Shown here piece after piece: positions 5,748 through 38,909 of a stretch of DNA of 38,909 bases. The position numbers and the translations under genes were made by a program. This DNA comes from a virus, in the IMG/VR virus record IMGVR_UViG_3300020562_000001, positions 1 through 38,909 of that record; one strand, given 5' to 3'. Below the pieces are notes generated by a model. It ran no database searches and was not told the origin of the DNA. It saw nothing but the letters and a program-made list of their open reading frames with translations. Each line of letters begins with the position of its first letter. Within the stretch, counting starts at the first letter, position 1.

Positions 5748-5803
5748 GCAGGACTTCTAGTGCGCGCGTGGTATCCTTGTCGCGTAAGCAACAAGGAGGC
5801 ACC

Positions 5804-14430: not shown

Positions 14431-14456
14431 CGCGCGTAGCTTTGTGTGTGTAGGAT
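14427..14456 (+). promoter_or_regulatory. Promoter TTGACG-18-TAGGAT
   Basis: -35 TTGACG (14427-14432) and -10 TAGGAT (14451-14456) are separated by 18 bases. It lies 32 bases before ATG 14489, which has a GAGGAGG site. It starts a small-gene transcription unit that ends at the terminator at 16000-16032. Confidence 0.65.
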
Positions 14457-14488
14457 GGGCAGACCCTAGACCTGAGGAGGTCAAAGTA

Positions 14489-20828: not shown

Positions 20829-20830
20829 TG

Positions 20831-20901: not shown

Positions 20902-20907
20902 TATTAT
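20902..20907 (+). promoter_or_regulatory. -10 box TATTAT, leaderless-type promoter
   Basis: TATTAT ends six bases before ATG 20914. No Shine-Dalgarno site and no good -35 box at 17 bases. Transcription would begin at or next to the start codon. Confidence 0.65.
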
Positions 20908-20913
20908 TCTCGC

Positions 20914-21243
20914 ATGAGCGAGTATAAGCCCAGCTCTGGAATGCAATCAGCAGCGCGCCGAGGACTAGACCTTGTTAAAGGTGGGCGCGCCGGCGGAGGC
21001 TTCGAGCCTGCTACGGCTACTCGCGCGCGGAAGATCGCCAGTGGCGCACCATTGTCGCGTGATCATGTTATGCGGATGCACTCATTCTTTTCGCGTCACG
21101 CCGTTGACCGCAAGCCTAATTGGGGCGCGAAGGGTAAGGAGACTCCAGGGTATGTGGCGTGGCAGGCGTGGGGTGGGGATGCTGGTGCGGCGTGGGCTGC
21201 TCGGCAGGCTGCAAGCATTAAGCGTGTGGAGTCTGGTAAGTAG
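20914..21243 (+). CDS. Putative virion protein with conserved HxxRMxSFFxRH domain
   Basis: 109 residues, basic. The central and C-terminal part (about 43-101) has SRDHVMRMHSFFSRHAVD and VAWQAWGGDAGAAWA. This pattern recurs in phage structural or head-associated proteins, but its function is not known to me. Arg-rich stretches suggest nucleic-acid contact. It stands between the terminase and portal and is preceded by a leaderless-type -10 box, so the ATG at 20914 is probably the first transcribed codon. Confidence 0.7.
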   Translation: MSEYKPSSGMQSAARRGLDLVKGGRAGGGFEPATATRARKIASGAPLSRDHVMRMHSFFSRHAVDRKPNWGAKGKETPGYVAWQAWGGDAGAAWAARQAASIKRVESGK

Positions 21244-21245
21244 GG

Positions 21246-21251
21246 TATGAT
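21246..21251 (+). promoter_or_regulatory. -10 box TATGAT, leaderless-type promoter
   Basis: TATGAT ends six bases before ATG 21258. The spacer TCTCGT is almost the same as the TCTCGC spacer at 20908. No Shine-Dalgarno site. Confidence 0.65.
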
Positions 21252-21257
21252 TCTCGT

Positions 21258-21404
21258 ATGAGTGCAAAGTACGAGAAGCTTGTGAAGTCGTTGAGCGCGA
21301 AGGGTTCGCGTGATCCAAAAGCTTTGGCTGCGTATATTGGTCGTAAGAAGCTTGGTAAGGAAGAGTTTCAGCGTCGCGCTGCGGCGGGAAGGAGTGCGTC
21401 GTAA
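21258..21404 (+). CDS. 48-residue basic protein
   Basis: Strongly basic, helical protein (YEKLVKSLSAKGSRDPKALAA, RKKLGKEEFQRRAAAG). Preceded by a leaderless-type -10 box and overlapping the next start at TAATG. Similar small basic proteins near phage head genes may bind DNA or RNA, but no family is recognised here. Confidence 0.65.
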   Translation: MSAKYEKLVKSLSAKGSRDPKALAAYIGRKKLGKEEFQRRAAAGRSAS

Positions 21405-21562
21405 TGATGAGCAAAAAGCCAAAGGGCGTTGTAATGAGTCCCGACAGGCAGTACGCAACCGGTACGCTAGGCAAGCAGCCGATCCGCGTAGTCGGCTCTA
21501 AGGAAGATAAAAAGAATATGCTTAAGAATGCTTTCAAGAAAATTGCGTCCAAGAGTAAGTAA
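21404..21562 (+). CDS. 52-residue basic protein
   Basis: Start overlaps the previous stop, and the stop overlaps the next ATG (TAATG). It is Lys-rich at both ends (MSKKPKG, KEDKKNMLKNAFKKIASKSK) with a Gly/Pro-containing centre. Coupling on both sides supports translation. Function unknown; a small virion or DNA-binding protein is possible. Confidence 0.6.
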   Translation: MMSKKPKGVVMSPDRQYATGTLGKQPIRVVGSKEDKKNMLKNAFKKIASKSK

Positions 21563-21846
21563 TGGACGCTCTCGACAAACTCAAGAAGAAGAACGCTCCC
21601 CAAGTTAGCGTCGCCCTCATGCGCATGAAGCCCATGTCGCGCAAAGAAGCAGTAACCGATTCCATGTCGTATCGCGACGACGAAGGCAACATGGAAGAAA
21701 ACAAGGAAATGATGGAAGACAAGGAAGAGTATGGTTCCGAGTCTTGCCCGAAGTGCGCCGAGTATCAGATGCTAATCGGAGAAGCCATCACTATGTACAT
21801 GCGAAACAAGGATAAGGAGGAAGCGCCAGACTCCGAGATGGAGTAG
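21562..21846 (+). CDS. Small acidic protein with CxxC
   Basis: 94 residues. A basic N-terminus (MDALDKLKKKNAP) is followed by a very acidic, Met-rich middle (DDEGNMEENKEMMEDKEE) and one SCPKCAEYQ motif. One CxxC cannot hold zinc alone, but dimers could. It follows the 52-residue gene by a one-base overlap. A head assembly accessory role is a guess from position. Confidence 0.6.
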   Translation: MDALDKLKKKNAPQVSVALMRMKPMSRKEAVTDSMSYRDDEGNMEENKEMMEDKEEYGSESCPKCAEYQMLIGEAITMYMRNKDKEEAPDSEME

Positions 21847-21850
21847 GTGC

Positions 21851-21856
21851 TACAAT
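21851..21856 (+). promoter_or_regulatory. -10 box TACAAT, leaderless-type promoter
   Basis: TACAAT, preceded by TGC (an extended -10), ends six bases before ATG 21863. A GGAG is too far upstream to serve this start. Confidence 0.65.
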
Positions 21857-21862
21857 AATCGC

Positions 21863-22240
21863 ATGGCAGTAGATCCGAGCATGATGGGCGCACCTCCGAT
21901 GATGCCGCCCGTACCAATGAGCGCACCCCCCGCACCCGGCGGCCCGATCCCTCCCGCAGTCGCGGCCCTTCCCGGCATGAGCCAGCTCGCGCAGGCGCAG
22001 ACAATGCAGATGATGGATCAGCAGCGTCAGATGGCGATGATGCAGGAAGAGATGCAGAAGCAGATGATGATGCTTATCTCTAGTCTGCCGACGCCGAATC
22101 CGGCTGGTGAGGCTGCTGTCTCGACTCCGATGAGTCCGATGATGAGTGGCGTTGGCGCTCCGCTTGGTGGCGCTTCGGCTCCGATGGGCGGCTCGATGAT
22201 GGGGGGCGCACCGGACATGGGTGCGCCTGGTGCCTACTAA
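21863..22240 (+). CDS. Methionine/proline-rich low-complexity protein
   Basis: 125 residues, of which about 24 are Met, and Pro, Ala, Gly and Gln dominate the rest. Pro/Gly/Met-rich ends (MMGAPPMMPPVPM; APMGGSMMGGAPDMG) flank a Gln/Met coiled-coil-like centre (MDQQRQMAMMQEEMQKQ). It is likely disordered outside the centre. Similar low-complexity proteins lie near portals in some phages, but its job is unknown. Leaderless-type -10 box upstream. Confidence 0.65.
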   Translation: MAVDPSMMGAPPMMPPVPMSAPPAPGGPIPPAVAALPGMSQLAQAQTMQMMDQQRQMAMMQEEMQKQMMMLISSLPTPNPAGEAAVSTPMSPMMSGVGAPLGGASAPMGGSMMGGAPDMGAPGAY

Positions 22241-22508
22241 CAATTTTCAGCAAACCGATCCGGCGATCTTGTCGCCGTATACGCATGCTCATATTGTGAC
22301 TCCAAGCGATACGGCGGATCTTGATGAGGTCACTCGCGCGCTTTACGCTTCTAAGGGTGCGTCTTCGCATAGTGACGTAAGCGTGATCCTAATAGGCGAT
22401 ACTGATCCGGTTACGTTTGTGTTGGCGCGTGGCGAAATTGTTCCGATACGAGTAAAGCGCGTCCGCGTAACAAATACTGACGCGACAAACATCGTCGCCC
22501 TTTACTGA
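22221..22508 (+). CDS. Small beta-rich structural-type protein
   Basis: 95 residues from GTG 22221; GTG 22230 is an equally possible start. It looks beta-rich (DVSVILIGDTDPVTFVLARGEIVPIRVKRVRVT), like small phage decoration or fibre-base domains. It overlaps the Met-rich gene in another phase. A virion-surface role is inferred from fold look and position only. Confidence 0.55.
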   Translation: MRLVPTNNFQQTDPAILSPYTHAHIVTPSDTADLDEVTRALYASKGASSHSDVSVILIGDTDPVTFVLARGEIVPIRVKRVRVTNTDATNIVALY

Positions 22509-22514
22509 TAGACT
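22509..22514 (+). promoter_or_regulatory. -10 box TAGACT, leaderless-type promoter
   Basis: TAGACT, preceded by TGA (extended -10), ends six bases before ATG 22521. No Shine-Dalgarno site. Confidence 0.6.
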
Positions 22515-22520
22515 AGACAC

Positions 22521-23219
22521 ATGCCGTTTATTACGCCTGCGACTGTCTCGCCAGGAGACAAGTATAACGCTTCTGCGCATAACATTATTGTTGGCGACCT
22601 TACTGATCTTGACACGCGCCTGACGGCAGCAACAGCTTATATTGTTCCTGCTGGTTCTCTTACTTCGTATGTTGGGGCGGCTGCCCCTTCTGGCTGGCTA
22701 TTGTGTGACGGTAGTCAGGTTTCTCAGTCAACGTATAGTGCGCTTTATGCGATCATTGGGGCTAACAAGTTTGGCACTGATACGGGTGGAAACTTTTTTC
22801 TTCCTGATCTTCGCGGACGGGTTCCTGTTGGGCTTGGTACGAATGCTGATGTTGATGTTATTGGTGATAATGATGGTGCGGCTGTTGCGGATCGTCGAGT
22901 TAAGCATAAGCATACGGTTGCGGCGTCGGCTACTGCTTCGTCTACGGCTACTGTTAGCGAAACTTCTACTGGCTCGCAAAACTACCAGTACAGCATTAAC
23001 CAGTATTCTGCTGGGTCTGGTTCGGCCTTTTTGCTTAAAGCCGATTCGCAGGGAGGCGGATTTGGCGGCGGCACTCTTGGCACGGCTTTCGCGCACACGC
23101 ATAGCGTTGGTGTTACTGTTTCGACTACGGTTACGCCGACGGTTACCGCTGGGCCGCAAACTACATCCCCAACTGACGGCCCGTCGTTCCTGACTCTCAA
23201 CTTTATTATCAAGACTTAA
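22521..23219 (+). CDS. Phage tail collar-domain protein (short fibre)
   Basis: 232 residues. About residues 46-115 form a tail collar domain: SYVGAAAPSGWLLCDG, TYSALYAIIG and FFLPDLRGRVPVGLG. The rest is Ser/Thr/Gly-rich, with an HKHT metal-like site (HTVAAS follows) and a C-terminal SPTDGPSFLTLNFIIKT typical of collar fibres. It likely recognises the host surface as a trimer. Its position between terminase and portal, far from the main tail genes, is unusual. A second collar protein lies at 33027. Confidence 0.85.
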   Translation: MPFITPATVSPGDKYNASAHNIIVGDLTDLDTRLTAATAYIVPAGSLTSYVGAAAPSGWLLCDGSQVSQSTYSALYAIIGANKFGTDTGGNFFLPDLRGRVPVGLGTNADVDVIGDNDGAAVADRRVKHKHTVAASATASSTATVSETSTGSQNYQYSINQYSAGSGSAFLLKADSQGGGFGGGTLGTAFAHTHSVGVTVSTTVTPTVTAGPQTTSPTDGPSFLTLNFIIKT

Positions 23220-23729
23220 ATGCCATATACTCGACCTTACTCTGGTGGTTTTCAAGACTTTCCGAATACGGGAACACCTATTAATGCGCTTGCGCTAAAC
23301 ACGATTGATCTTGGTGTAAAAACAGTTAGCGACACCGTAGACGCTCTTGGTTCGTGGACAGCGTATGTCCCGACGCTGACTAATACAACTGCGCCTATTA
23401 CGGTTGCTCGTTACGTGAAGATTGGCAAGACGGTTCATTTTTATGTCCAGTTGACGCTGACTGGAGCGCAAGTGTCTGGACTCCCAGGAATTAGCCTCCC
23501 CCCGTTTGCAATGCTTAGCACAAGCTCTGGCACGTTTGAAGTAAAGCTAATTGACGCAGGCTTGGTATACCCTGGCGTTGGAGTTGCTGGTACAACTTCA
23601 AGAATTGATTGCTACGTTGCTAACGCTGGCGGATTATATGTTCAAGTTCTTGCCCCAACAAGCATTGTTCCATTTACGTGGGCAACTACAGACCAGATTG
23701 TTTTGAGCGGAACATACGAGTCCGTGTAA
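23220..23729 (+). CDS. Putative fibre or virion surface protein
   Basis: 169 residues. The N-terminal ~50 residues look like an attachment region (FQDFPNTGTPINALALNTIDLGV). The rest is a beta-sandwich-like segment (WTAYVPTLTNTTAPITVARYVKIGKTVHFYVQLTLTG is a pattern common in phage tail-fibre domains; positions ~46-85). It directly follows the collar protein (TAAATG) and overlaps the portal start at TAATG. Receptor binding or decoration is likely. Confidence 0.65.
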   Translation: MPYTRPYSGGFQDFPNTGTPINALALNTIDLGVKTVSDTVDALGSWTAYVPTLTNTTAPITVARYVKIGKTVHFYVQLTLTGAQVSGLPGISLPPFAMLSTSSGTFEVKLIDAGLVYPGVGVAGTTSRIDCYVANAGGLYVQVLAPTSIVPFTWATTDQIVLSGTYESV

Positions 23730-25432
23730 TGATCGAGTCTACCGACCAGAAAAAACTACTAGACCGATTCACAAAGTGCTGGGGCTACTCTGACCAGAAG
23801 CACCGCGCCAATCGAGAGTTCTACAAGAAGTGTGATGATGGTTACAACGCAATCATCAAGCCATCCAACAGCGAATGGCAGAGCGACCTGCACCCGCCAT
23901 ACGCGCTTCAGATCATTGACGTTATCGAGTCGAACATTGTTGATGATGAGCCTGACGTTCGCGTCATCCCTGCACAACCCGACTACTCCGAGGGCGCTGA
24001 CCTTCTCACAAACATTCTGAAGCAGCAGCGTTACAAGGATAACTTTGCTGAGAAGTACGCACTCTTCGTCAAGCAGTCCCTCATTCGGGGCATTAGCATT
24101 GCAAAGATTCCGTGGCTAGAAGAGTGGCGGAAAGTCCCCACTCCGAACTACAAGCCTGATCCGCTCGGGATGCGCGAGCCGTACCAGACCGTTCCGTACC
24201 GGCAGCAACCCGGCTTCGTCAACGTAGACGCCAACCATTTTCTCTGGGACGCAAACGCGACCAGTCTTGACGATGCCGAGTACGTCTTCTTCCGTACGTA
24301 CGAGTCGAAGCGCAGCCTAGAAGCCGCCGGCGTGTACGACAACCTAGAGAAGATCGTCGAGCTTACGACGACAACTACTGAAGATAAAGAGCGGCGTAAT
24401 CGTGTCGAGGTTGTTGAGTGGTGGTGGCGTGACGGCAACATGATGCGCCTGACCGTTGTTGCCAATCGGAACACGATTATTCGTGATTGTGCCTCTCCGT
24501 TCTGGCACGGCCAGTTCCCATTTGTCGTTGCAAACATTATGCCGACGCCATTCGCGTTCCGTGGCAAGAGCATTGTTGAGATTATCAGTGACCTTCAGAT
24601 TGCCCTCTGGGAACTCCAGAATCAGCGCATTGACAACTCGAAGTTTATGGCGAACGCGGCTATGTTTGTTGATCCGAACACTGAGCAGCAGGACATTCGC
24701 CTCTACCCTGGCGCTGTCATTCCGCTTCGTCCTGATCAGGTGCAGGCGTGGGTGCCGAACATCTCGATTCTTCAGCCGAGTGTGCAGGCTGAGGAGATGC
24801 TGAAGGGTGATCTTCAGAACATCACGGGCGCGGTTGGCTACTTGAGTGGCGCGTCTAATACTCAGATTGATCAGACGACAGCAACAGGCATTTCGGTCAT
24901 TAGTAATATGGCTGCTAAGCGCATCATTCGGATGAAGCAGCAGATTATGTATGCGATGCGCCGCTGCGGTGAGCAGCAGGTCGCGTTGAATCAGCAGCTC
25001 CTTCCCGGCCCTATTGCTGTCAGGATTGATCGTGATTCTGATGCTGAGTGGAAAGTCGTTACGCCTACTGATATTCAAGGCCAGTACGATTTCCGCGTCG
25101 AGGATGCGAATGAGAGCCTTATGCGGCAGGAGCGTCGCGCTGAGGCTCTTGCGTTTGCGAATTGGTTTGGACAGAATTATGCTCTCCTTACCCAGAGTGG
25201 CGTCACTCCTAATATGCGTCGAGTCGCTGAGGATGTTATTCAAGCGTTTGACGAAGATCCGAAAGAATATCTTGGAGACGCCGAACAGGTGCAGAACCCG
25301 CCTTTGGTCGGAGGGCCGGGTCAGTCACAGCCGGAACCGACAACCCCAATGGGCGCAGCGCCTGGAATGCCGAGCATTCCGCCGGAAATCCTTGCTGCGC
25401 TCGGGGCCGGTTCCGGCCTAAACAATCAGTAA
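23729..25432 (+). CDS. Portal protein
   Basis: 567 residues from ATG 23729, fixed by the TAATG overlap. The N-terminus and centre match large portal proteins: helical start, YALQIIDVIESNIVDDEPDVRV, FRGKSIVEIISDLQIALWELQNQRIDN, TGAVGYLSGASNT and a long helix at IRMKQQIMYAMRRCGEQQ. The tail is Pro/Gly-rich. It forms the ring through which DNA enters and leaves, contacting terminase, scaffold and the adaptor. Size and style fit podovirus-type portals with a head-tail connector role. Confidence 0.88.
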   Translation: MIESTDQKKLLDRFTKCWGYSDQKHRANREFYKKCDDGYNAIIKPSNSEWQSDLHPPYALQIIDVIESNIVDDEPDVRVIPAQPDYSEGADLLTNILKQQRYKDNFAEKYALFVKQSLIRGISIAKIPWLEEWRKVPTPNYKPDPLGMREPYQTVPYRQQPGFVNVDANHFLWDANATSLDDAEYVFFRTYESKRSLEAAGVYDNLEKIVELTTTTTEDKERRNRVEVVEWWWRDGNMMRLTVVANRNTIIRDCASPFWHGQFPFVVANIMPTPFAFRGKSIVEIISDLQIALWELQNQRIDNSKFMANAAMFVDPNTEQQDIRLYPGAVIPLRPDQVQAWVPNISILQPSVQAEEMLKGDLQNITGAVGYLSGASNTQIDQTTATGISVISNMAAKRIIRMKQQIMYAMRRCGEQQVALNQQLLPGPIAVRIDRDSDAEWKVVTPTDIQGQYDFRVEDANESLMRQERRAEALAFANWFGQNYALLTQSGVTPNMRRVAEDVIQAFDEDPKEYLGDAEQVQNPPLVGGPGQSQPEPTTPMGAAPGMPSIPPEILAALGAGSGLNNQ

Positions 25433-25458
25433 TTCTGACCATCCGACTGGAGGACTAG

Positions 25459-26370
25459 ATGAGTACGAACGATACGACCGAAATCGTTGACGAGATTGAT
25501 CCGATTGCGAACGCGATCATGCATGGCGGTTCTGGGCATGATGCGCCGGAAAGCGGTGCGGATTTTGCACCGGAAAGCGGTGCAGACGTTGAGGAGGCTC
25601 CCGAAGAGCTAATCCTTGGCAAGTTCAAGAGTCCCGATGATGTTCTTGAGGCGTATAAGAATCTTGAGGCGTACAACACGCAGCAGAATCAGCGCCTGTC
25701 CGAGCTAGAGGCTCTGTTGTCTGCGGATGATGAGGAAGAGTACGAGGCTCCGCGTCCGTGGGGTGTTCAGTTTAATGGCGAGCCGGATAATGAGGAGCAG
25801 CTTGTTGGTTGGGCTGAGCGTGACCCGGGTCAGGCTGCGCAGTGGGCGATTGCGAACGCTGATCGCGTTCCGAAGGAAACTGTTGATGGTCTTTGGGAGC
25901 ATTGGTTTGAGCGTAAGCCGACTGAGGCGATGGCGTGGTATACGCAGCAGCAGACGCAGCATGTTGCGCAGCAGTACGAGCAGGAACTCGCTTCGTTGCG
26001 TGAGCAGGTCGCTCCGTTGCGTGACGCGCAGACTCAGAACATGTTCGAGGGCGCGCTCGGGTCGCTAGAGGCTCAGATCCCTGATCTTGCCGAGTATTCG
26101 GAGAAGATCCAAGCGTACGTTGACAATATTCCTGTCGATCAGCTTCATCTTGCGTTCTTCCCGAATGGGATGGATACGCCGGAGAAGGTGCAGGAAGGCG
26201 TTCGTAGTTTGTATGCGATTGTGCGGATGCGTGAGCAGCCGCTGCAAGCGCAGCAGCAGGTTCAGCAGCAGATGCAGCAGAATGCGTTTACGCAGTCGCG
26301 GCAGGGCATTGTTGATACTAATGCAACCGATTATGATGCTAAGATCAATGACGCTATCTTGAACGCTTGA
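25459..26370 (+). CDS. Capsid scaffolding protein
   Basis: 303 residues, acidic, between portal and major capsid protein, the normal place for a scaffold. The N-terminus has a duplicated APESGAD unit, and EELILGKFKSPDDVLEAYKN is typical of phage scaffolds. The centre and C-terminus are helical and Gln-rich (QQQTQHVAQQYEQELASL, QAQQQVQQQMQQ). A GGAGG site precedes the ATG. It guides prohead assembly and is absent from the mature head. No protease domain is seen. Confidence 0.82.
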   Translation: MSTNDTTEIVDEIDPIANAIMHGGSGHDAPESGADFAPESGADVEEAPEELILGKFKSPDDVLEAYKNLEAYNTQQNQRLSELEALLSADDEEEYEAPRPWGVQFNGEPDNEEQLVGWAERDPGQAAQWAIANADRVPKETVDGLWEHWFERKPTEAMAWYTQQQTQHVAQQYEQELASLREQVAPLRDAQTQNMFEGALGSLEAQIPDLAEYSEKIQAYVDNIPVDQLHLAFFPNGMDTPEKVQEGVRSLYAIVRMREQPLQAQQQVQQQMQQNAFTQSRQGIVDTNATDYDAKINDAILNA

Positions 26371-26459
26371 TAGTGACCGACCAACCCGTGGCCCAACCCG
26401 ACCGTTGGACAACCGCAAATCATCTCACACCTACTAGTCAGAAAGGCTAGGACAACCAA

Positions 26460-27635
26460 ATGCCTACCCTCCTCTCTGGGGTCGTTGACGACGCGGATAT
26501 TCTGTCCAATCAGCGCGTTGTTGACATGTCCCCCACCATTGCCGAGCTTGAGCCTGATGAGGCTCCGCTCACGACCATGCTTCAGAAGGTCAGCAAGCGC
26601 GCTGCCTACTCGCAGAAGGTCGAGTGGCTTTCGGATGAACTGGTGCCGCGTCTGACGACGCTTTCCGCATCGGCTACTTCGGCTGCCACTTCTCTCTCCG
26701 TTCCCGCGACTACGGGCGCTTCGTCCGGTACGTACTTCCGTGCCGGCGACGTTATCCGCATCGCTTCGACGGGCGAGAACTGCTACGTCACTGGCGTGTC
26801 GGCTGACACGCTGTACGTCACGCGCGGTATCGGCGGAACGTCCGTTACGGCTGTTTCTGCTGCTAGCGGCGTTGACGTTATCAAGGTTGGCAACGCGGCT
26901 GCTGAAGGTGCCACTCTCGGTACCCTCATCCAGACGAAGAAGGTCGCTAACTTCAACTACGCGCAGATTCAGCGTGACCCGTGGGGCTTCACGAACACGC
27001 TGGTCGCGTCGAAGCTGTACGGCGGCCCGGAGCCTGCTAACGAGGCTAAGAAGAAGCTGATTGAGCATAAGCGTCAGCTTGAGAACACCCTGTTCTGGGG
27101 TGTGCGTGACCTCAACACCAGCGGCTCTGCGCCGATTGGTTATTGTGGTGGCGTGTTCCAGTACGCGACGACTAACCTCACGGCTAGCGTTGGCACCCTT
27201 ACGGAGAGCGTGTTCGAGTCGTTCCTCCGCAAGGCGTTCCGTTACGGCTCGCAGAACAAGGTGTTCTTCTGCTCGCCGCTCGTCGCGTCGGCTCTGTCCT
27301 CGTTCCCGCAGGGCAAGCTCGCTCCCCCGGCTCCTGGTATTACCGAGTACGGCGTTTCGCTGTCCTCGTACCAGAGCGCGTCGGGTGCGAAGGTTCAGAT
27401 CATGGTGAAGCGTGACTGGTATGACTTCCAGAACACGAGCAACCAGTACGGTGGTATCGGCGTCATGCTCGACATGGACGATATTACGATGCGTCCGCTG
27501 CGCGACACGGTGCTGAAGCCGGATCGTCAGGCCAACGATGAGGACTCCATTAAGCAGGAGTACCTGACCGAGTGGTCGTTCGAGATGGGCAACGAGAAGA
27601 AGCACGCTATCATCTCTGGCATCACCGGCTACTAA
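26460..27635 (+). CDS. Major capsid protein (SU10/DUF5309-like HK97 fold)
   Basis: 391 residues. The start, with MSPTIAELEPDEAPLTTML and QKVEWLSDELVPR, resembles the SU10-type major capsid family (DUF5309). Further features are YFRAGDVIRIAS, an EHKRQLENTLFWG helix, VFFCSPLVASAL and a C-terminal HAIISGITGY. It forms the head shell. The 89-base leader holds a GAAAGG site rather far (13 bases) from the ATG. A strong stem-loop follows at 27646, probably protecting or attenuating this transcript. C-ending codons are more frequent here than in neighbours, as expected for a highly expressed gene. Confidence 0.88.
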   Translation: MPTLLSGVVDDADILSNQRVVDMSPTIAELEPDEAPLTTMLQKVSKRAAYSQKVEWLSDELVPRLTTLSASATSAATSLSVPATTGASSGTYFRAGDVIRIASTGENCYVTGVSADTLYVTRGIGGTSVTAVSAASGVDVIKVGNAAAEGATLGTLIQTKKVANFNYAQIQRDPWGFTNTLVASKLYGGPEPANEAKKKLIEHKRQLENTLFWGVRDLNTSGSAPIGYCGGVFQYATTNLTASVGTLTESVFESFLRKAFRYGSQNKVFFCSPLVASALSSFPQGKLAPPAPGITEYGVSLSSYQSASGAKVQIMVKRDWYDFQNTSNQYGGIGVMLDMDDITMRPLRDTVLKPDRQANDEDSIKQEYLTEWSFEMGNEKKHAIISGITGY

Positions 27636-27645
27636 GCCAACAAGC

Positions 27646-27677
27646 GGGGGAGAGTCGCCATTGTGCGGCTCTCCCCC
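27646..27677 (+). terminator. Terminator-like hairpin after the capsid gene
   Basis: GGGGGAGAGTCGC (27646-27658) pairs with GCGGCTCTCCCCC (27665-27677): 13 pairs with one T-G wobble and a six-base loop. Only weak Ts follow, so partial termination or mRNA 3'-end protection is likely. Confidence 0.7.
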
Positions 27678-27711
27678 AGTTCTTCCTACTCCAACGACCA
27701 GGAGACAATCA

Positions 27712-28356
27712 ATGCGATTTGTCAGCAAGCACGGGAACTTTACTTTTATTGCTCGCCCGGATACGGTTCAGATGATCCTCGGGCCGGGTGGCTCGATGAT
27801 TCCGCACACGGTTCAGAGTGCAATTATCTGCGACTTTACTCACGGCATGGTTCGCCCGGACGAAGCGGTGATGGCTGCCGAGAAGTGGATGGGCATGGGC
27901 GCTCGTAGCGATGGTACGCCTATCGCGTTTGGCGCTATTCCTAGTGGTCAGAGTGGCGTTGTGAATGGTGTTGCTCACGATTCGTGGCAGCCAATGTTGA
28001 CGTTCAGCGTGTTTGACACGGAGTCGATTCCGAATCTTGAGGATCGCGAGTGCGCCGAGAAGCGCCTTGTTGAGGATTCTGGTAATGGTCTTCACTACAT
28101 CCAGGTTGGTCATCGTCCGCTTAGTCCGCCGTGGCCGACGTACGAGCAGATGAAGGGCATTAAGGGTAACTCGACGGCGCAGATGGTTTGTCGCATGATT
28201 GAGGATGGTGGTTATGATCCCGAGTATGTGATTGCGTACGAGCTTCAGCGTGAGCGTCCTCGTTATGAGATTACGAAGGCGATTGAAGAGTTGAAGTTGC
28301 GGCTTGCTGGTGAGGCAATTGAGGATGCTTCGCTGAGTCGCGAGATCCCCGCGTAG
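27712..28356 (+). CDS. Hypothetical protein after the capsid gene
   Basis: 214 residues from ATG 27712, with an AGGAG site. The N-terminal part looks beta-rich (NFTFIARPDTVQMILG), the middle includes WQPMLTFSVFDTESI, and the C-terminus is helical (EITKAIEELKLRLAGEAIEDA). Position suggests a head completion, decoration or minor capsid protein, but no family was recognised. Confidence 0.65.
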   Translation: MRFVSKHGNFTFIARPDTVQMILGPGGSMIPHTVQSAIICDFTHGMVRPDEAVMAAEKWMGMGARSDGTPIAFGAIPSGQSGVVNGVAHDSWQPMLTFSVFDTESIPNLEDRECAEKRLVEDSGNGLHYIQVGHRPLSPPWPTYEQMKGIKGNSTAQMVCRMIEDGGYDPEYVIAYELQRERPRYEITKAIEELKLRLAGEAIEDASLSREIPA

Positions 28357-28358
28357 CC

Positions 28359-29924
28359 GTGCATCACAACATTGCCGCGTATAAGGCGGCCGTGCGTCGC
28401 CACGTAACGGTCGTGATGCCTTGGCATGGGCAAGACGAAGGGTTACTACGCGAGGCTCTTAGATCGCTCCCTAGAGGCGTTAGAATCATCATCGCTCAGA
28501 ATGCGGGAAAGCATGAGATGGCTAGTGCTTTCAACGCTGCGTTGGCTAGCGTAAAAACTCGATACGTGTTCATCATGGGCGCTGATGATGTGGTTGACGA
28601 GGATACGTTGTGGCGCTTGTGGGAAGCAGCCATTGATCATGATGGTGCGTATCCGTGGATGCTTGGCTTTGGCGAGCGCAGGTTCCGCTTTCCCGCCGAG
28701 CCGTGGTCAAAGCTTCGTATCCAAGACTCGAATGTGTGTGGCGTAATGCTGATTAAAACGAGCGTGGCGCTTGCCGTTGGCGGGTATCAAGACAAGGTTA
28801 TCGAGGATTGGGATTTCTCGTATCGTCTTGCTAGTGCGGGGTATCGCCTTGCTCCCGCTCCGCTTGCTCGTTACGGGTATCGTCAGCGCGTCAAGGGTTT
28901 GAATCAGCAGACATTTCGTGGCGCGTCCGAGCTTGGCTTGTCTATCAGGGATCTTGCTCCGTATGAGGAGCGCGACGCGGTTAGTGGCGTGTTCTATCAG
29001 TGGAAGTACGATGGGACGGCGTATGTGCGGTGTGATCTTGCGTCGCGCACTGCTGGTGGCGTGGTGCGTTCGACGTGGGATGCAAAGGATGAGCATGAAG
29101 CGCCAGCGTGGGTGTATCAGTATCCGAATAGTGATGCGCAAGTGTATTGGGATCTTGGCGCTCGACTAGAGAAGAAGCGCGTTATTGATGTGGATGATAA
29201 TTACTTGTCGCCCGACTTGGCTAGCGTTGTTGGTCGGTACAACGATAAGAATGGCGCGGCGTGGGGCGAACGACAAGAGTCGCATAAGCGCATGGTCGAA
29301 GAGGCCGACTATGTTATTTGTGCGACGCCAGCGTTGGGAGAAGTGTACAAACTGGTCAATCCTAATACGATTGTTTGCGAGAATACGTGCGACCCGCTGG
29401 ATTGGCCCAAGGCAAGCAAGAAGCGCCGCATCGTTGGGTGCGTGTTGAGCGCGAATCATTATGATCACACGCACCTCGTAGAAGATGCGCTACGCAAAGC
29501 AAGCGCGTCTGGAGCTGACGTTCAAATCGTTGGCTTAGACCCTGGGTGGGACTTCGCTTATACACACTTTTCGTTTACTCCGAGTGTCGCAGCGTATCGG
29601 CGTATCCTTACGCGCTGGAGTATTGGCTTAGCGCCAGTGATTGATAATGATGTCACTCGATGCAAGAGTGATTTGAAGTGGCTTGAGTTCACGATGAGTG
29701 GTGCTGCTCTTGTTGCCAGCGGAGTGGAGGCGTACAAGCTTGTGCCAGACGACTCGATTATTCGCGCCGATAATGCCGATGGGTTTACTGACGCGGTACT
29801 TGGCCTTCTTCGTGACGAGTCGGAACGGAAGCGTATGATTCGTCGTAGTATGTTTCATGTGAAACAAAACCGCCTTGTTTGCAATGAGTCGTTGCAGAGG
29901 CGTTATACTACAGCACTAGCATGA
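28359..29924 (+). CDS. Two-domain glycosyltransferase (GT-A plus GT-B-like)
   Basis: 521 residues, GTG start. Residues ~14-190 form a GT2/GT-A domain: VTVVMPWHGQDEGLLREAL, the acidic metal site IMGADDVVDEDTLWRLWE, and VIEDWDFSYRLASAG. From ~260 a GT-B-like half follows: VYQYPNSDAQVYWDL, RVIDVDDNY, ADYVICATPALGEVY and DLKWLEFTMSGAALVASG near the end, where GT-B enzymes bind the sugar nucleotide. It probably adds two sugars in sequence, with donor and acceptor unknown. The place between head and tail genes suggests virion glycosylation. The alternative is alteration of host wall glycans to block superinfection. Confidence 0.85.
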   Translation: MHHNIAAYKAAVRRHVTVVMPWHGQDEGLLREALRSLPRGVRIIIAQNAGKHEMASAFNAALASVKTRYVFIMGADDVVDEDTLWRLWEAAIDHDGAYPWMLGFGERRFRFPAEPWSKLRIQDSNVCGVMLIKTSVALAVGGYQDKVIEDWDFSYRLASAGYRLAPAPLARYGYRQRVKGLNQQTFRGASELGLSIRDLAPYEERDAVSGVFYQWKYDGTAYVRCDLASRTAGGVVRSTWDAKDEHEAPAWVYQYPNSDAQVYWDLGARLEKKRVIDVDDNYLSPDLASVVGRYNDKNGAAWGERQESHKRMVEEADYVICATPALGEVYKLVNPNTIVCENTCDPLDWPKASKKRRIVGCVLSANHYDHTHLVEDALRKASASGADVQIVGLDPGWDFAYTHFSFTPSVAAYRRILTRWSIGLAPVIDNDVTRCKSDLKWLEFTMSGAALVASGVEAYKLVPDDSIIRADNADGFTDAVLGLLRDESERKRMIRRSMFHVKQNRLVCNESLQRRYTTALA

Positions 29925-31005: not shown

Positions 31006-31008
31006 CGC

Positions 31009-33027: not shown

Positions 33028-34553
33028 TGGCTAAGGATTTTGATTCGCCGGCGATGCCTTCGATAAAGCCGATTGCTGAGCCTCCTGATCCGCGTGTCAT
33101 TCCGCTTGATCGTCAAGAGTCTTTGACGCATAACCAGGTTGAGCAGATTCGGTTCGGGTTGGGGGATACGGGGCCGTTGGCTCAGGCTGTGATGAACTCG
33201 AATATTTCTTCGCTTCAGAAGCAGTTGGCTACTGGTGCGATTTCGTGTTTGTCTACTCGTCGTCCTGCTGATCCTGTGCAGGGTCAGATGATTTTTGAGA
33301 CTGACACTAAGCTTACGTATTTTTGGGATGGGACGGCGTGGGTTACTGGTACGGGTAGTGGTGCGGTTCTTACTCCGGTGGGTACGATTGTTCCGTATGC
33401 TGGTACGGGTTTGTCTACGCCTGCTGGCTGGTTGTTTTGCGCTGGGCAGGCTCTTAATGCGGTGACTAGCCCAGAGTATGCGGCGTTGTATGGCGTGATT
33501 GGGAATCAGTATGGTGGTACGAATAATACGAACTTCCAAGTGCCTGATCTTCGTGGTCGAGTTGCTGCTGGTCGCGACGACATGGGCGGCACGGCGCAGA
33601 ACCGGCTAACTACCGCCGGCAGTGCGGTTAATGGTGTACTGCTTGGCGCTAATGGTGGTCTGCAGAATCGGACTTTAAGCCTTGACCATGTTCACTATGG
33701 ACAAGGCCAAGGCGGGAATATAGCGGCTGCCATTGGTGCCGTAAATAGTCGTGTTGACAGTATTGGTTATATCGCTGGAGGCGTTACCGGCCCCGGATCT
33801 GGAACGTCTACTTACGCTATTGCTGGCGGATATTTGGGAACAGGCAATGCTTTTAACCATTACACGCCTGTGTATGGACAGACGAGCGGAATGAGTGCTA
33901 ACGCTGCGCCTGTTGTTAATACCGTTCAGCCAACGATTATCACGAATTACATCATCAAGGCTATTGCGGATACCGTAACTGGTTATGCAGGCACGACTCT
34001 TACGGGAGCTGCTGGTGGAGATCTTACTGGAACCTATCCGAACCCAACGATCACGAACATCACGAACGCGCCTATTTATAACAGTAATACGACGGTAAGT
34101 TTCCGCACGTCCAGCACTGAGCGCATGAGCATTGACGCTAGTGGGCGCGTACGTAAACCGTTTCAGCCCGTAGCAACAGTTTATAGAACAAGTAGCCTTG
34201 GGGCCGGGGCCAACATTGGTTGGACTGGGTCGTACATAAATACTGGGAGTATGTTTCCCGGTGCTGGCGGCGTAAACTTTACGGTTCCCGTTGCTGGTAA
34301 TTATTTGTTTTGTGTACAGGCAATGTCTGACAATAATTCAAATAACATTTATATTGATCTTTACAAGAATGGTGTTAGGGTTGATTATTTGCGCACTTAC
34401 GGTTATTCGTCTACAAACGCCCACAAACAGATTTCGTTTCAAGTTGTTTTGCCTGCTGCGGCAAATGATTATTTCTATTTTCGCAACGAAGGCTCAACGC
34501 TTTATGGCGACAGTGCCGGATATTCTAATGCTCTAGTTATGCTTGTATCTTAG
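33027..34553 (+). CDS. Tail fibre/collar protein with C-terminal beta domain
   Basis: 508 residues, GTG start with a TAGTG overlap. An N-terminal virion-binding helix region (~1-75) leads to a collar domain at about 112-190: GTIVPYAGTGLSTPAGWLFCAG, TSPEYAALYGVIG and NFQVPDLRGRVAAGRD. Then comes GAAGGDLTGTYPNPTI, a repeat found in many phage fibres, and a C-terminal C1q/TNF-like jelly roll (~380-508; GVNFTVPVAGNYLFCVQAM, NDYFYFRNEGSTLYG). It likely binds the host receptor. Shares the collar module with the protein at 22521. Confidence 0.85.
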   Translation: MAKDFDSPAMPSIKPIAEPPDPRVIPLDRQESLTHNQVEQIRFGLGDTGPLAQAVMNSNISSLQKQLATGAISCLSTRRPADPVQGQMIFETDTKLTYFWDGTAWVTGTGSGAVLTPVGTIVPYAGTGLSTPAGWLFCAGQALNAVTSPEYAALYGVIGNQYGGTNNTNFQVPDLRGRVAAGRDDMGGTAQNRLTTAGSAVNGVLLGANGGLQNRTLSLDHVHYGQGQGGNIAAAIGAVNSRVDSIGYIAGGVTGPGSGTSTYAIAGGYLGTGNAFNHYTPVYGQTSGMSANAAPVVNTVQPTIITNYIIKAIADTVTGYAGTTLTGAAGGDLTGTYPNPTITNITNAPIYNSNTTVSFRTSSTERMSIDASGRVRKPFQPVATVYRTSSLGAGANIGWTGSYINTGSMFPGAGGVNFTVPVAGNYLFCVQAMSDNNSNNIYIDLYKNGVRVDYLRTYGYSSTNAHKQISFQVVLPAAANDYFYFRNEGSTLYGDSAGYSNALVMLVS

Positions 34554-34560
34554 GAGAATT

Positions 34561-34821
34561 ATGCCAAAGTTCACAATCACCATTACTGACGTAGAGGCGG
34601 CCGCCTTAGCTCATGTTATGGACGACCCGCAAGAATGGGCGCAGAACGCCATTACCCACCGCGCTTGTATTGCTACTGATGAGATCGTGGCGCGAGAAAC
34701 AGCACGCATGATTGCCGACCCGAACATCACACAAATCCCCGCCACCGCTGCCGAGATCGTCATGGCAGCAGAACTTCCAGCACCGCCCAGCATAGATCTT
34801 CCCGTGCTGCCCGAAGCATAG
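34561..34821 (+). CDS. Small protein following the fibre gene
   Basis: 86 residues with an AGGAG site before ATG 34561. Starts with a beta strand (KFTITITDVEAAAL), then a helix (HVMDDPQEWAQNAI), and ends with a Pro/Ala-rich tail. Small proteins of this kind often follow fibre genes and may aid fibre assembly, but no family is firmly recognised. Confidence 0.65.
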   Translation: MPKFTITITDVEAAALAHVMDDPQEWAQNAITHRACIATDEIVARETARMIADPNITQIPATAAEIVMAAELPAPPSIDLPVLPEA

Positions 34822-34822
34822 G

Positions 34823-34828
34823 TATACT
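34823..34828 (+). promoter_or_regulatory. -10 box TATACT, leaderless-type promoter
   Basis: TATACT ends seven bases before GTG 34836. No Shine-Dalgarno site. It starts the ejection-protein group. Confidence 0.6.
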
Positions 34829-34835
34829 ATTAGTC

Positions 34836-35093
34836 GTGGCCTCTACACTCTACTCCGCACAGCGCGTAAACTTCAAACCCTCCGCGCCACAGAATAGTGC
34901 AATGACCGATCCCAAGAAAGTCTTGATCGAGTCGTTGAAGAAGCTTGGCGAGAAGAGTACGCAGAAGATTATGGATCAGTCGCCTGCTGCTGTGATGGGT
35001 GCCATTACGAATCCTAAGGATGTTGCTGGTGGGATGAAGGGTAATCTTCTTGGTGGTGTTGAGACTCGCGCTCGGATGATGGGTGGGCGTTAG
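34836..35093 (+). CDS. Small virion-type protein
   Basis: 85 residues, GTG start after a leaderless-type -10 box. Basic and helical with Gly/Met turns (DPKKVLIESLKKLGEKSTQK, GGMKGNLLGGVETRARMMGG). It overlaps the next gene as TAGTG. By place it may be a small internal virion protein. Function unknown. Confidence 0.6.
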   Translation: MASTLYSAQRVNFKPSAPQNSAMTDPKKVLIESLKKLGEKSTQKIMDQSPAAVMGAITNPKDVAGGMKGNLLGGVETRARMMGGR

Positions 35094-36241
35094 TGGCTCC
35101 TGCTATTAAGATTCCTAAGCCGGGGAAGACGGGTACGCCGAAGGGAATGGAAGGCGTACGGCCTGGTTCTTCTCAGGCGATTAAGGCTGGGTATAAGCCG
35201 CCGAAGCCGCCGAAGCCGCCTGCGCGTCCTGGTGGGGCTAGGGTTCCGTTTGCCGTAACGCTTGACCCTAGTAAGGGATCGACGTTCACTCCCGCAGCAA
35301 AGGCTCCGGCCGCGCCGCCTGCCGCTGCCGCCACCCCTCCGCCCCCCGCCGCCCCAACAACGCCATTCAATTATGCGGACGCATTCCTTGCCGACCCGCG
35401 CTTCGCAACTGGCATGGCTGGCATCACACAAACACAACTCGGCATTGGATCCAATTACGGATTCACGCTGAATCGCGACACGACTGAAGGCTCGCCCACT
35501 AAGGGCATGGTGTTGTATCGAGTGCCGGGAACCGATCCGGGCAAAGGCAATATCACTGGTCGCGTTGATCCTGTTACTGGCGCGTTTACATACGTTGACC
35601 CTTCGGGGAAAGTCTATGACGTTACGAAGCTAGAGCTTGACGTTATTCCGATTAAGCGTGGCGAGGCTGGGTATCTTGAGGGATCGCTTGGTCAGGCGGC
35701 GGCTGGTAGTGAGAAGCAGCAGTTTGCGATTGGGGATGCTGCTGCTCGGGCTGGTGCGCGTCGTAGTGGTATGCGCGCGTCTTCTGCGGTCGCTGAGACG
35801 CAGGCGCTTCAAGATGCGCTTCGCAGGTTGAATGTTGGCGCGGCTGGCGAGCTTGCTGGGACGACTAATCGTTATGCGGATCTGTTGAATACGATTTTTC
35901 CTGATCTTGTGAAGAGGGCTGGCGAGTTTGTTGCGCCGCCTGTTGAAGCGCCGGCTGCTCCAGAAGCGCCTGCGGCTGAGGCTCCGGCTCCGGCTGCGCC
36001 AGAGTATCTTGGGTATAACCAGGCTCCGACTCCTCCGCCCGGTACGCTTGGTGCTGGGCCGGGTGGCGCGTTTATGACGCTTGTTGGTGATATTACGCTT
36101 GAGCGGAATACGACTGATAAGGCGATCCGTGAGGGTCTTCGAGCGTTCTTGAAGAATCCCGCTTACCAGTTGAGTCCTCAGCAGATTCGATACATTAATT
36201 CGCTGATTACTGGTCGGTACAAGGGCAATAAGAAGTATTAG
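35093..36241 (+). CDS. Putative internal virion (ejection) protein, Pro/Ala-rich
   Basis: 382 residues, GTG start. N-terminal ~100 residues are Pro, Lys and Ala-rich and probably disordered (KPPKPPKPPARPGG). A beta-rich centre follows (GMVLYRVPGTDPGKGN, VDPVTGAFTYVDPSG), then a helical segment (SAVAETQALQDALRRLNVG) and a second Pro/Ala linker. The end is a helix (IRYINSLITGRYKGN). First of three large proteins placed where ejection proteins sit. Function in DNA delivery is inferred. Confidence 0.65.
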   Translation: MAPAIKIPKPGKTGTPKGMEGVRPGSSQAIKAGYKPPKPPKPPARPGGARVPFAVTLDPSKGSTFTPAAKAPAAPPAAAATPPPPAAPTTPFNYADAFLADPRFATGMAGITQTQLGIGSNYGFTLNRDTTEGSPTKGMVLYRVPGTDPGKGNITGRVDPVTGAFTYVDPSGKVYDVTKLELDVIPIKRGEAGYLEGSLGQAAAGSEKQQFAIGDAAARAGARRSGMRASSAVAETQALQDALRRLNVGAAGELAGTTNRYADLLNTIFPDLVKRAGEFVAPPVEAPAAPEAPAAEAPAPAAPEYLGYNQAPTPPPGTLGAGPGGAFMTLVGDITLERNTTDKAIREGLRAFLKNPAYQLSPQQIRYINSLITGRYKGNKKY

Positions 36242-36246
36242 GTTGG

Positions 36247-36252
36247 TACACT
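36247..36252 (+). promoter_or_regulatory. -10 box TACACT, leaderless-type promoter
   Basis: TACACT, preceded by TGG (extended -10), ends six bases before ATG 36259. No Shine-Dalgarno site. Confidence 0.65.
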
Positions 36253-36258
36253 AGACTC

Positions 36259-37611
36259 ATGCCAAGTTTTAACATTGACAACCGCGCCCCCTCTCAGGTT
36301 CTTGGCGATCCCAATTCTGGAAAAACTACTACCTTTAAGATGGTTCAGGGAAAGCGTAGGCCGCAGGCGCAGGCTGCGTATAAGGCTCCAGGGGCAACGC
36401 CGGCTGCGACGACTACTGCTGCTGCTCCGGGCAAGACTGCTGCTCAAAAAGCCGCTGAGAAGAAGGCTGCCGCTAAGAAGGCTGCCGCTAAGAAGGCTGC
36501 TGAAAAGAAAGCTGCTGCTGCTGCGGCGGCGGCTGCCGAGCGGAATCCGCTTACCAGTTCGTTTAAAACTCCGAATGAGCTTCGCGCTGAGGCTGCTCGA
36601 TTGGCTGCTATGGGGTCAGCTAGCGAAGAGTCGCTTCGTACAGAGTCGGCCGCTCAGCAGCGCGACATTAGTGGCCTTAGTACAGCGTTGACTGGTCGCC
36701 TTGCGGGGCTTGGCAATGAGTATGCGGCGACGCTTGGTGGTCTTACGTCACAGTACGGCCAGCTTGCTGGGCAGGCGCAGAGTGCTGGCGAGTCGCAGGC
36801 CGCTGCTGCTGGCGCTCCGACGAGTATTGCTCCTGGTGCTTCTCCGACGGTTGCGACGACGATGGCTGCGCTTGGTGCGATTCCGGCTACGTATGCTCCG
36901 GCTGCTGCGATGCGTGGCGCGATGCTTGGTGGTGAGGCGCGTGCTGCTTTGACGAAGGCGCTTGCGGATCGAGCGACGAAGATTAGTGGGGATACTGCGA
37001 AATACTTGTATCAGTTGCAGCAGGATGAGATGAGTAAGGCTGTGGCTCAGGCTGCGTCTGCTCAGAACGCTGCGCGGCTTGCTCAGAGTGGTGCGGCTGA
37101 GAGTTGGAATCAGCAGGTTGATGTTGCGAATATTGGGATTCGGCAGCAGAATGCTAATACTTCTGCTCAGCGTGCTGCGGCTAGTGCTCTTGCTGCTAGT
37201 GGGAAGGGCGCGAAGGCTAAGCAGAAGGCTATTCGTGATATGCAGACGGATATTCTTTTGAAGCTTGATACGTGGACTGCGCCGGATGCGAAGCCTTCGG
37301 GCAATAAGGAGTATACGGTTTACTTTACTGGTGCTGACGGTACTCTTGAGGAAGTCCCTAAGAAGATTGTTGCTGCGTCTGAGAATGAAGCGCGCACAAA
37401 GGCGGCGGTTAATGTTCCGGCTGCTTACTCTGCGACTATTCAAGTTGAGGAAGGCAACGCTGTGGGGCGTGCGTATACTTCTGCCGAGTTGACGAATAAG
37501 CTTGTGACGCTTCTTGTGCAGCAGGGTATGAACAGGAAGAAGGCAATTAATTGGGTTCGCGCTAATGTTCTTTCTGGTACTGCGGCTGCGCCTGCTTATC
37601 CTACTACGTAG
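36259..37611 (+). CDS. Putative internal virion protein with histone H1-like Ala/Lys repeat
   Basis: 450 residues. Residues ~60-95 are KAAAKKAAAKKAAEKKAA-type repeats like the tails of histone H1 and bacterial HU extensions, a likely DNA-binding arm. The middle is Ala/Gln-rich helix (YQLQ... type; LYQLQQDEMSKAVAQAA at ~252-270), and the C-terminal ~110 residues contain a small beta domain (KEYTVYFTGADGTLEEVPKKI) and a final helix. Preceded by a leaderless-type -10 box. It may condense or guide DNA during ejection; this is inference from composition and position. Confidence 0.65.
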   Translation: MPSFNIDNRAPSQVLGDPNSGKTTTFKMVQGKRRPQAQAAYKAPGATPAATTTAAAPGKTAAQKAAEKKAAAKKAAAKKAAEKKAAAAAAAAAERNPLTSSFKTPNELRAEAARLAAMGSASEESLRTESAAQQRDISGLSTALTGRLAGLGNEYAATLGGLTSQYGQLAGQAQSAGESQAAAAGAPTSIAPGASPTVATTMAALGAIPATYAPAAAMRGAMLGGEARAALTKALADRATKISGDTAKYLYQLQQDEMSKAVAQAASAQNAARLAQSGAAESWNQQVDVANIGIRQQNANTSAQRAAASALAASGKGAKAKQKAIRDMQTDILLKLDTWTAPDAKPSGNKEYTVYFTGADGTLEEVPKKIVAASENEARTKAAVNVPAAYSATIQVEEGNAVGRAYTSAELTNKLVTLLVQQGMNRKKAINWVRANVLSGTAAAPAYPTT

Positions 37612-37625
37612 TGGCGCTTAGGCGC

Positions 37626-37631
37626 TAGAAT
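37626..37631 (+). promoter_or_regulatory. -10 box TAGAAT, leaderless-type promoter
   Basis: TAGAAT ends six bases before ATG 37638, the start of the giant gene. No Shine-Dalgarno site. Confidence 0.65.
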
Positions 37632-37637
37632 ACGAGC

Positions 37638-38909
37638 ATGGCAGCGCCCCCTAAAAAGAATCTTGCCTTTGAGCTTGCGAGTGGAGATAAGGCTTCTCTT
37701 AAAAAGGTCGCTCCGAAGAAGCCTGTTGTTGGCAAGAAGAAGCCTAAGCCGACGCTTCGGCCTGAGTATAATCTTGTTTTTGATCCGACGGGTCAGCAGT
37801 CCGAGGCTTTGCAGGGCGAGTTGGATGCTATTCGAGATTTGTATCTTTCGTCTGCTGGGCGGGATATTGAGGAGGAGCCTGATAAGCGTGTAGCTCTGGA
37901 GCAGGCTGGCTTGTTGAAGCCGACTGTTTCTAGGAAGAAGGCTTCGGAGTTGAAGCGTGGTGGGTCTGACGAGTTTGCGTCGGCTATGGATGCGCTTGAC
38001 GCTGTGAAGGGTGGCGCTAAGTCTTGGTTGACGCGAGGCGTTGATGCTGAGAAGGTTAAGGAGCGTGCGGTTCGGGGTACTGGGGATGCGCTTGGCGCGC
38101 TTGTTTTTGGTGATTATGAGAAGAATCCTGCTCTTTTGCAATCTAGTCCTTTGGCGCAGGCTCGTTTTGTTGCTGAGCAAGTGGCTCCGCGTGTTCGGGA
38201 TGCTCCGCTTCCGGTTCCGGGTGTTCCTGGTGTTGTCCCAGGTGTGACTGTTGGCGAGGCGGTTGGGAAGGCGGCTAGTGTTATTCCCGCTATTGGTCGA
38301 ACGCCGTTGCCGGTTCCGGGCGTTCCGCTTCGGGTTCCGGGTTTGACGATTGGCGAGGCTGTTGGTGCTGCGGGTAAAGGCGCTGGTGCTGTTGTTAGTA
38401 AGACTGCTGAGGGTGCCGCTAAGTCTTTTTCTAATATTCCTACTGGTATTGGCGCGTTGCGGCCGGCTGTCAGTGGCACTGGTCAGGCGTACACGCCTAG
38501 TGTTCCACAGTTGGAGACGCTGGGTGGGCGTTCTGAGGTGTTTGAGCGGATTGCTGCTCGTCCGAATGATTACATTGATACGACTCGTAAGAAGCCAATT
38601 CGCATCGCTAATGCTAACGAGCAAACCGATGCTGTTATCGAGTCGGCTAAGGCTGGGCGTACTCCTTCTGATTTGAATGATCTTATCGGAAAGAGCAATC
38701 CGTTCTCTCCGATGGGCTTGTTGTCGATGAAGGGCATGGCTGCTGAGAATGGGTGGGACACTGCTGATTGGGACAAGCTAACTGTTGGTGATAAGGCGTT
38801 TCGCGCTGCAAACAATAATGATTATGGCGCTTTGTTTTGGCGTTCTGTTGTTCGTGGCGTTGGTGAGGTTGGTGCTGCGCCAGCTGGTATTAAGGCAATT
38901 ATTGGCGCT
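37638..38909 (+). CDS. Giant virion/ejection protein, N-terminal part (continues at base 1)
   Basis: The 5' part of the gene that ends at 4746: 391 codons up to 38810, then the 99-base overlap. The N-terminus is basic (KKVAPKKPVVGKKKPKP). Around residues 190-243 two copies of a Pro/Val/Gly unit occur (PLPVPGVP...TVGEAVG and PLPVPGVP...TIGEAVG), 33 codons apart. Hydrophobic Gly/Ala stretches follow each copy and could insert in membranes. Near residue 340 is FSPMGLLSMKGMAAENGW. The start is set by a leaderless-type -10 box and the absence of earlier in-frame coding. Function as an ejected protein is inferred. Confidence 0.8.
   Translation, partial: MAAPPKKNLAFELASGDKASLKKVAPKKPVVGKKKPKPTLRPEYNLVFDPTGQQSEALQGELDAIRDLYLSSAGRDIEEEPDKRVALEQAGLLKPTVSRKKASELKRGGSDEFASAMDALDAVKGGAKSWLTRGVDAEKVKERAVRGTGDALGALVFGDYEKNPALLQSSPLAQARFVAEQVAPRVRDAPLPVPGVPGVVPGVTVGEAVGKAASVIPAIGRTPLPVPGVPLRVPGLTIGEAVGAAGKGAGAVVSKTAEGAAKSFSNIPTGIGALRPAVSGTGQAYTPSVPQLETLGGRSEVFERIAARPNDYIDTTRKKPIRIANANEQTDAVIESAKAGRTPSDLNDLIGKSNPFSPMGLLSMKGMAAENGWDTADWDKLTVGDKAFRAANNNDYGALFWRSVVRGVGEVGAAPAGIKAIIGA
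38205..38366 (+). repeat. Two in-gene copies of a 63-base unit
   Basis: Bases 38205-38267 and 38304-38366 both encode PLPVPGVPxxVPGxTxGEAVG; 17 of 21 residues are identical. A recent internal duplication in the giant gene. Confidence 0.85.
38811..38909. repeat. Direct terminal repeat, right copy
   Basis: Exact copy of bases 1-99. It closes the circle; the unique genome length is 38,810 bases. Confidence 0.95.

Follow-up and report, generated by a model that had tools for sequence, protein, structure and literature searches.

Extended -10 boxes at leaderless distance before the virion genes of an uncultured 39-kb phage group

The stretch of DNA considered here (the window) is positions 1 to 38,909 of the IMG/VR virus record IMGVR_UViG_3300020562_000001, a 38.9-kb linear contig in which all called genes share one strand. 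The element in question is a TANNNT hexamer, or box, that ends six or seven nucleotides before the start codon of a series of its virion genes. These genes belong to a virion block, defined as the region from the large terminase gene (gene 19192) to a giant gene that starts at 37638 and is truncated by the end of the window (the orthologues in relatives encode ~1,700-1,840 aa). The block also contains the genes for the portal (gene 23729) and the major capsid protein (MCP; gene 26460, phrog_1328), as well as tail-fibre-like genes, of which 22521 is one. A lysis/replication block at ~4903-17000 opens with a tail-like gene (4903) and encodes a CHAP endolysin, a holin, a RecT-like protein, SSB, a cytosine methylase and a RuvC-like protein. 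In all counts, 'early' covers every gene that is not part of the virion block, including those for lysis.

An earlier note on this DNA had placed seven such hexamers directly before start codons, six nucleotides away in all cases but one, and each of them lies where it was reported, on the plus strand. The first, TATTAT at 20902-20907, is followed by TCTCGC (20902..20913) and by the ATG at 20914 of a 109-aa gene; it is among the few boxes without a G at -14 relative to the start codon. A strong hairpin at 20831-20886 (GAGCGGCTAGGAGA...TCTCCTAGCCGCTC) separates the terminase gene from this box, and in several relatives the terminase stop codon falls inside the left arm of the matching hairpin. 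TATGAT at 21246-21251, contained in the extended -10 sequence GGTATGAT and followed by TCTCGT (21246..21257), precedes the ATG at 21258 of a 48-aa gene. Two boxes with a G at -14, TACAAT at 21851-21856 with AATCGC (21851..21862) and TAGACT at 22509-22514 with AGACAC (22509..22520), stand before the ATG codons at 21863 and 22521, respectively, and the TAGACT of the tail-fibre-like gene 22521 overlaps a stop codon, as TGATAGACT. Farther downstream, TATACT at 34823-34828 lies 7 nt before the GTG at 34836 (34823..34835), within GGTATACT, which most orthologues retain, and TACACT at 36247-36252, in TGGTACACT and followed by AGACTC (36247..36258), lies before the ATG at 36259. The last box, TAGAAT at 37626-37631, again with a G at -14, is followed by ACGAGC (37626..37637) and the ATG at 37638 of the giant gene. 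The absence of Shine-Dalgarno (SD) sites and of -35 boxes, which had also been claimed for these genes, holds as well: none of the seven has an SD core of 5 or more nt, and their boxes are absent from a sigma-70 -35/-10 consensus scan of positions 20000-38909.

Megablast against a public phage collection gave no nucleotide match to the window, and the comparison was therefore built on IMG/VR contigs. A terminase relative is present at 46 IMG/VR loci, and 14 of those contigs were taken full length; the comparison set, consisting of the window and ~45 related contigs, represents uncultured ~39-kb phages. Genes were called by a coding-score method that is blind to upstream signals, which yielded 650 distinct start contexts. 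At intergenic gaps of 10-19 nt, TANNNT occurs at spacer 6 or 7 in 64 of 68 distinct virion-block contexts (17 of 19 gene families), compared with 0/18 contexts in the lysis/replication block and with a mean of 5.25 and a maximum of 13 in 300 rounds of dinucleotide shuffling of the same virion-block upstream sequences. Among starts with gaps of 10-40 nt (n = 148), the motif forms a sharp peak, with 71 occurrences at spacer 6 and 16 at spacer 7, while internal in-frame ATG/GTG codons (n = 5,717) have 36 and 56, or 1.6% together. The scan proposed in the earlier note, once extended to relatives, thus separates these gene starts both from shuffled sequence and from random in-frame codons. A further peak at spacer 11 was dismissed as an artefact formed by a TAG stop, GG and the first T of the box. 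Gene families absent from the window carry the box at 10-19 nt gaps in 6 of 7 cases, an independent test that does not re-count the genes from which the pattern had been noticed. TANNNT is short, and the seven genes had been picked out by the earlier note, which might suggest chance matches selected by eye; given these frequencies, such an explanation is vanishingly improbable, and the boxes are real and under selection. The stop-box-start string AGTAGGGTATASTN6ATG was found in 20 contigs and its N9 control in 18, indicating that this exact cassette is not widespread, and a stricter stop-box-start string had 0 matches.

In an alignment of 105 sequences, the hexamer is TANA(C/G)T-like; 81% have A as its fourth base, and 88% have a G two bases 5' of it. 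With the hexamer at -12 to -7, this G falls at -14, the key base of the extended -10 element, and at spacer 6 most sequences carry it in 20 of 21 families. The T at -15 is poorly kept (27/81 at spacer 6, 14/23 at spacer 7), so the element is written G-N-TANNNT rather than as a strict TGn. Nothing is conserved in the -35 region, where the match to TTGACA is the same as in offset controls (2.30 vs 2.36). At spacer 6, 69 of 81 sequences have C or T at position -1, and the first two bases of the start codon itself, A or G followed by T, occupy +1 and +2; such a YR initiator, with a pyrimidine at -1 and a purine at +1, has been reported for mapped M. tuberculosis starts (PMC3898074). A box and an SD core of 5 or more nt never coincide (0 among the box starts). 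The view that the boxes are extended -10 promoters with a predicted +1 on the A or G of ATG/GTG is well supported by these features, and the leaderless reading offered in the earlier note, which had overlooked the G at -14, is strongly supported by box position, conservation in relatives, this G, the missing -35, the exclusion of SD sites and the YR initiator on the start codon.

Leaderless initiation depends on where translation begins. If the boxes were genuine promoters with true start codons further downstream, the messages would have ordinary leaders; the start codons are indeed predicted ones, and gene calling is difficult for short genes. However, orthologous N-termini align from the proposed starts (e.g., MSE/MSK at 20914 and V-S-T-L at 34836), orthologous starts favour 20914 over the alternative 20899 and 34836 over 34902, and no SD lies at the expected place past the box in the window genes, all of which makes downstream starts highly improbable.

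The boxes have a partner rule, also missed by the earlier note. Gaps between virion-block genes are bimodal, most of them measuring either -1 (a stop-start overlap, for example TAATG or TAGTG) or 12-18 nt, the latter leaving just enough room for G-N-box-N6. Virion genes without a box mostly have the 1-nt overlap with the upstream stop (TAATG/TAGTG) and are likewise without an SD. Coupled genes carry an SD in 10 of 147 contexts in the virion block, compared with 33 of 73 outside it, where -4 overlaps predominate (p = 0.004 at the level of families), and a TANNNT box is present in just 2 of the 147 stop-start coupled virion-block contexts. In the window, two SD-poor TAATG overlaps at 21404 and 21562 (21401..21564, plus strand) extend the unit that begins at 21258, and a TAGTG overlap at 35093 (35090..35095, plus strand) extends the unit from 34836. 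Eight families are boxed in some contexts and coupled in others, which suggests that the signal tracks position in the transcription unit.

This interchange, together with the placement of boxes in 12-18 nt gaps directly past a stop codon, would also fit an RNA-level translation signal, in which an A+T-rich, weakly structured spacer aids reinitiation and no promoter is involved. Such a spacer would leave unexplained the base specificity at T1, A2, A4, T6 and G-14 and the fixed distance of 6-7 nt, which are promoter features; moreover, the coupled genes of the virion block are almost all without the motif, and 20914 lies past a 120-135-nt gap with a hairpin and no stop codon nearby. A pure reinitiation signal is accordingly rated quite unlikely. 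Alternatively, the boxes could mark morons, accessory cassettes with promoters of their own that are unrelated to late expression as such. Many box genes between the terminase and the portal are small and variable among relatives, and families absent from the window are boxed too. Yet conserved large virion-block genes also have the box, in 11/11 contexts of the 36259 family and 10/10 contexts of the family (F23) of the giant gene 37638, and the box is traded for stop-start coupling when gene order changes. As a full explanation the moron idea is unlikely, and it may account in part for the spread of the boxes, but not for their mechanism.

Several virion genes depart from the rule. The gene at the scaffold position (25459), the MCP gene (26460) and 27712 have conserved leaders of 26-89 nt (25433..27714, plus strand), with SDs at 25459 (GGAGG) and 27712 (AGGAG), and 34561 also has an SD. 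The MCP leader (26371-26459) contains a block that is near-invariant in relatives, TGTGGCCCAACCCGACCGTTGGACAACCGCA, with the core TGGCCCAACCCGACCGTTGG, and may include an RNA element. Between the MCP gene and 27712, a hairpin at 27646-27677 differs among relatives on both sides of the stem with pairing kept, an informal observation.

Outside the virion block, the earlier note had described early units with -35/-10 pairs and ribosome-binding sites at 7796, 14427, 16061 and 17255, and -35/-10-like pairs ~17 nt apart, with SDs, were found at these places and are partly conserved in relatives. In one conserved early-type promoter, TTGACG...TAGGAT is followed by an AGGAGG leader and the ATG at 14489 (14430..14491, plus strand); the CTTGC/CTTGA...TAGAGT before 7851 is conserved in relatives as well. 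A TTGAC-type pair lies within 110 nt upstream of 7 of 26 SD genes of the lysis/replication block; the figure for box genes is 2 of 97, and that for random stretches 1.4%. The CHAP endolysin gene offers a different contrast: an extended -10, GTGGTATCCT (conserved as GCGTGGTATYCT in most relatives), is followed by a leader with AAGGAGG and the ATG at 5804 (5772..5806, plus strand), so that a promoter of the box type would drive a leadered message. Holin and endolysin are functionally late and have SDs or leaders. The split between early and late modes of initiation that had been proposed is therefore only partly right. Hardly any boxes lie outside the virion block, but within it 25459, the MCP gene and 27712 are leadered, and the lysis genes have SDs; the division thus appears to follow gene module and promoter type, with timing as an inference; a strict early/late rule stands at about even odds. 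Elsewhere in this part of the window, a C8-AAA-C8 tract at 4876-4894 lies immediately 5' of gene 4903 (relatives keep C8-NN(N)-C8), and a Gfo/Idh/MocA-type oxidoreductase gene occupies 10259-11311 of the replication block, its matches in known phages being weak and partial. ARAGORN found no tRNA in the window.

The near-confinement of the boxes to the virion block is also what would be expected of a true late class served by a phage-encoded RNA polymerase or sigma factor. That possibility is very unlikely, given that the motif is an ordinary primary-sigma -10 with a G at -14, that conserved information is limited to this G, the hexamer and the start codon, that the endolysin has the box promoter type too, and that no polymerase or sigma factor was matched among the window proteins scanned, some small ORFs lying outside the scan. 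Promoters of the T7-like phage RNA polymerase kind were considered separately and rejected, with no long conserved promoter and no polymerase match among the scanned proteins.

With a probability of roughly 0.85, the sequence comparisons point to a leaderless extended -10 promoter of its own for nearly every virion gene that is not coupled to its neighbour. Each box would be the extended -10 (G-N-TANNNT, ~-14 to -7) of a separate promoter without a -35, probably recognized by host RNA polymerase together with the primary sigma factor. Transcription would begin 6-7 nt past the hexamer, on the initial A or G of the coding sequence, and the resulting leaderless mRNA would be engaged by the ribosome at its 5' end, with the later cistrons of each short unit expressed through stop-start (TAATG/TAGTG) reinitiation. 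In this way at least seven small units would account for the expression of most of the virion block without SDs, and leadered messages, mostly with an SD, would serve 25459, the MCP gene, 27712 and the lysis/replication block.

Several points weigh against this proposal. The gene starts rest on a simple caller and on the starts of orthologues, and contexts from related contigs are non-independent, which family counts lessen but do not abolish. Translation of leaderless RNA by the ribosomes of the host is an assumption. The boxes are also missing, or nearly so, from other phages: a relative with ~55% MCP identity (L143-L145) has a single box, at spacer 8, and otherwise none, and phiC31, PA6, BFK20, Molivia and EBPR podovirus 3, four of which are actinophages, have 0 boxes at 20 comparable gaps. 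Boxes are present in a relative with ~63% MCP identity (L141/L142), and, taken with the five reference phages, this pattern indicates a lineage-specific rather than a general trait. Beyond these relatives, a phage with 36% identity over part of the terminase repeats the box geometry in front of small ORFs that run opposite to its structural genes. One such set of repeated elements of leaderless geometry, in the distant phage L188 (G018), lies on the minus strand at ~9180-14950 (reverse-complement coordinates), with CCCTCAGTATGGTATAATACAGGC-ATG and close variants before at least 5 small ORFs, as well as AGGGTATACTATAGAC-ATG and others.

Start-associated sequences (SAS) of cluster K mycobacteriophages are short elements repeated just upstream of start codons. 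Set against that general description, the boxes differ in that they share only -10 bases and contain no SD; SAS/ESAS are mentioned in PMC11373665. The closest parallels are found among host genes. As the earlier note had stated, leaderless TANNNT genes are common in Actinobacteria (PMC3160421; PMC3898074), and in Deinococcus mutations have shown that the -10-at-ORF arrangement acts as a promoter and not as a ribosome-binding site (PMC12340547). Like the TA-led genes of Actinobacteria and Deinococcus-Thermus, the phage genes have TANNNT ~12 nt before the start, a purine at +1 with a pyrimidine at -1, and both ATG and GTG starts, and they lack an SD and a conserved -35. Unlike them, the phage boxes cluster in one functional block, where they recur one after another along an operon-like array. 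Their G-14 also varies much less than in M. tuberculosis, where 49% of TANNNT promoters are preceded by [G/C][A/G]N and 7% by TGN. The G at -14 and the weak or missing -35 are shared with the extended -10 promoters (TGnTATAAT) of C. glutamicum and mycobacteria (PMC3890552), which differ in that the phage T at -15 is not conserved and the predicted +1 is tied to the start codon. In cluster O mycobacteriophages, three leaderless SigA-like promoters, PL1, PR2 and PL2, have been predicted, likewise with +1 on the first base of the start codon (PMC4351075). As described in that paper, these are three per genome, obtained from a sigma-70 -35/-10 search, and do not form a serial, -35-less virion array. 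No report of a module-wide leaderless array in a phage was found in the literature searched, which covered few subscription journals, and leaderless RNA and promoters are unmentioned in the transcriptome paper on Rhodococcus phage WC1. Single leaderless phage promoters have been predicted before, and the putative module-wide array would be unusual.

An actinobacterial host is a likely candidate, hinted at by proteins of two relatives. Among 264 records that match the GP88 protein of one of them, 235 are mycobacteriophages, and the best matches listed for the beta clamp of the other, scanned against the PDB, include some that we take to be mycobacterial clamps. A TerL search of genome contigs found no relative, and a cytosine methylase search gave distant matches only, scattered over many phyla and pointing to no host.

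If true, this would be a group of phages in which most virion genes are expressed independently of ribosome-binding sites, through small leaderless units and stop-start coupling, and it would offer a compact, testable model of leaderless translation during phage infection. It would further provide a start-site rule for revising the gene predictions of these uncultured phages, and a signature by which to recognize phages whose hosts translate leaderless RNA. It would also show that dependence on a -35 and on SDs can differ by gene module inside one 39-kb genome. An unlikely extension is a double switch, in which the first-needed genes rely on -35 contacts and SDs and most virion genes on neither, so that an early phage protein, acting as an AsiA-like blocker of sigma region 4 or by altering ribosomes, could silence host and early genes while leaving the virion units on. 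The module-wise difference in -35 and SD dependence would make the question of such a host-takeover switch testable.

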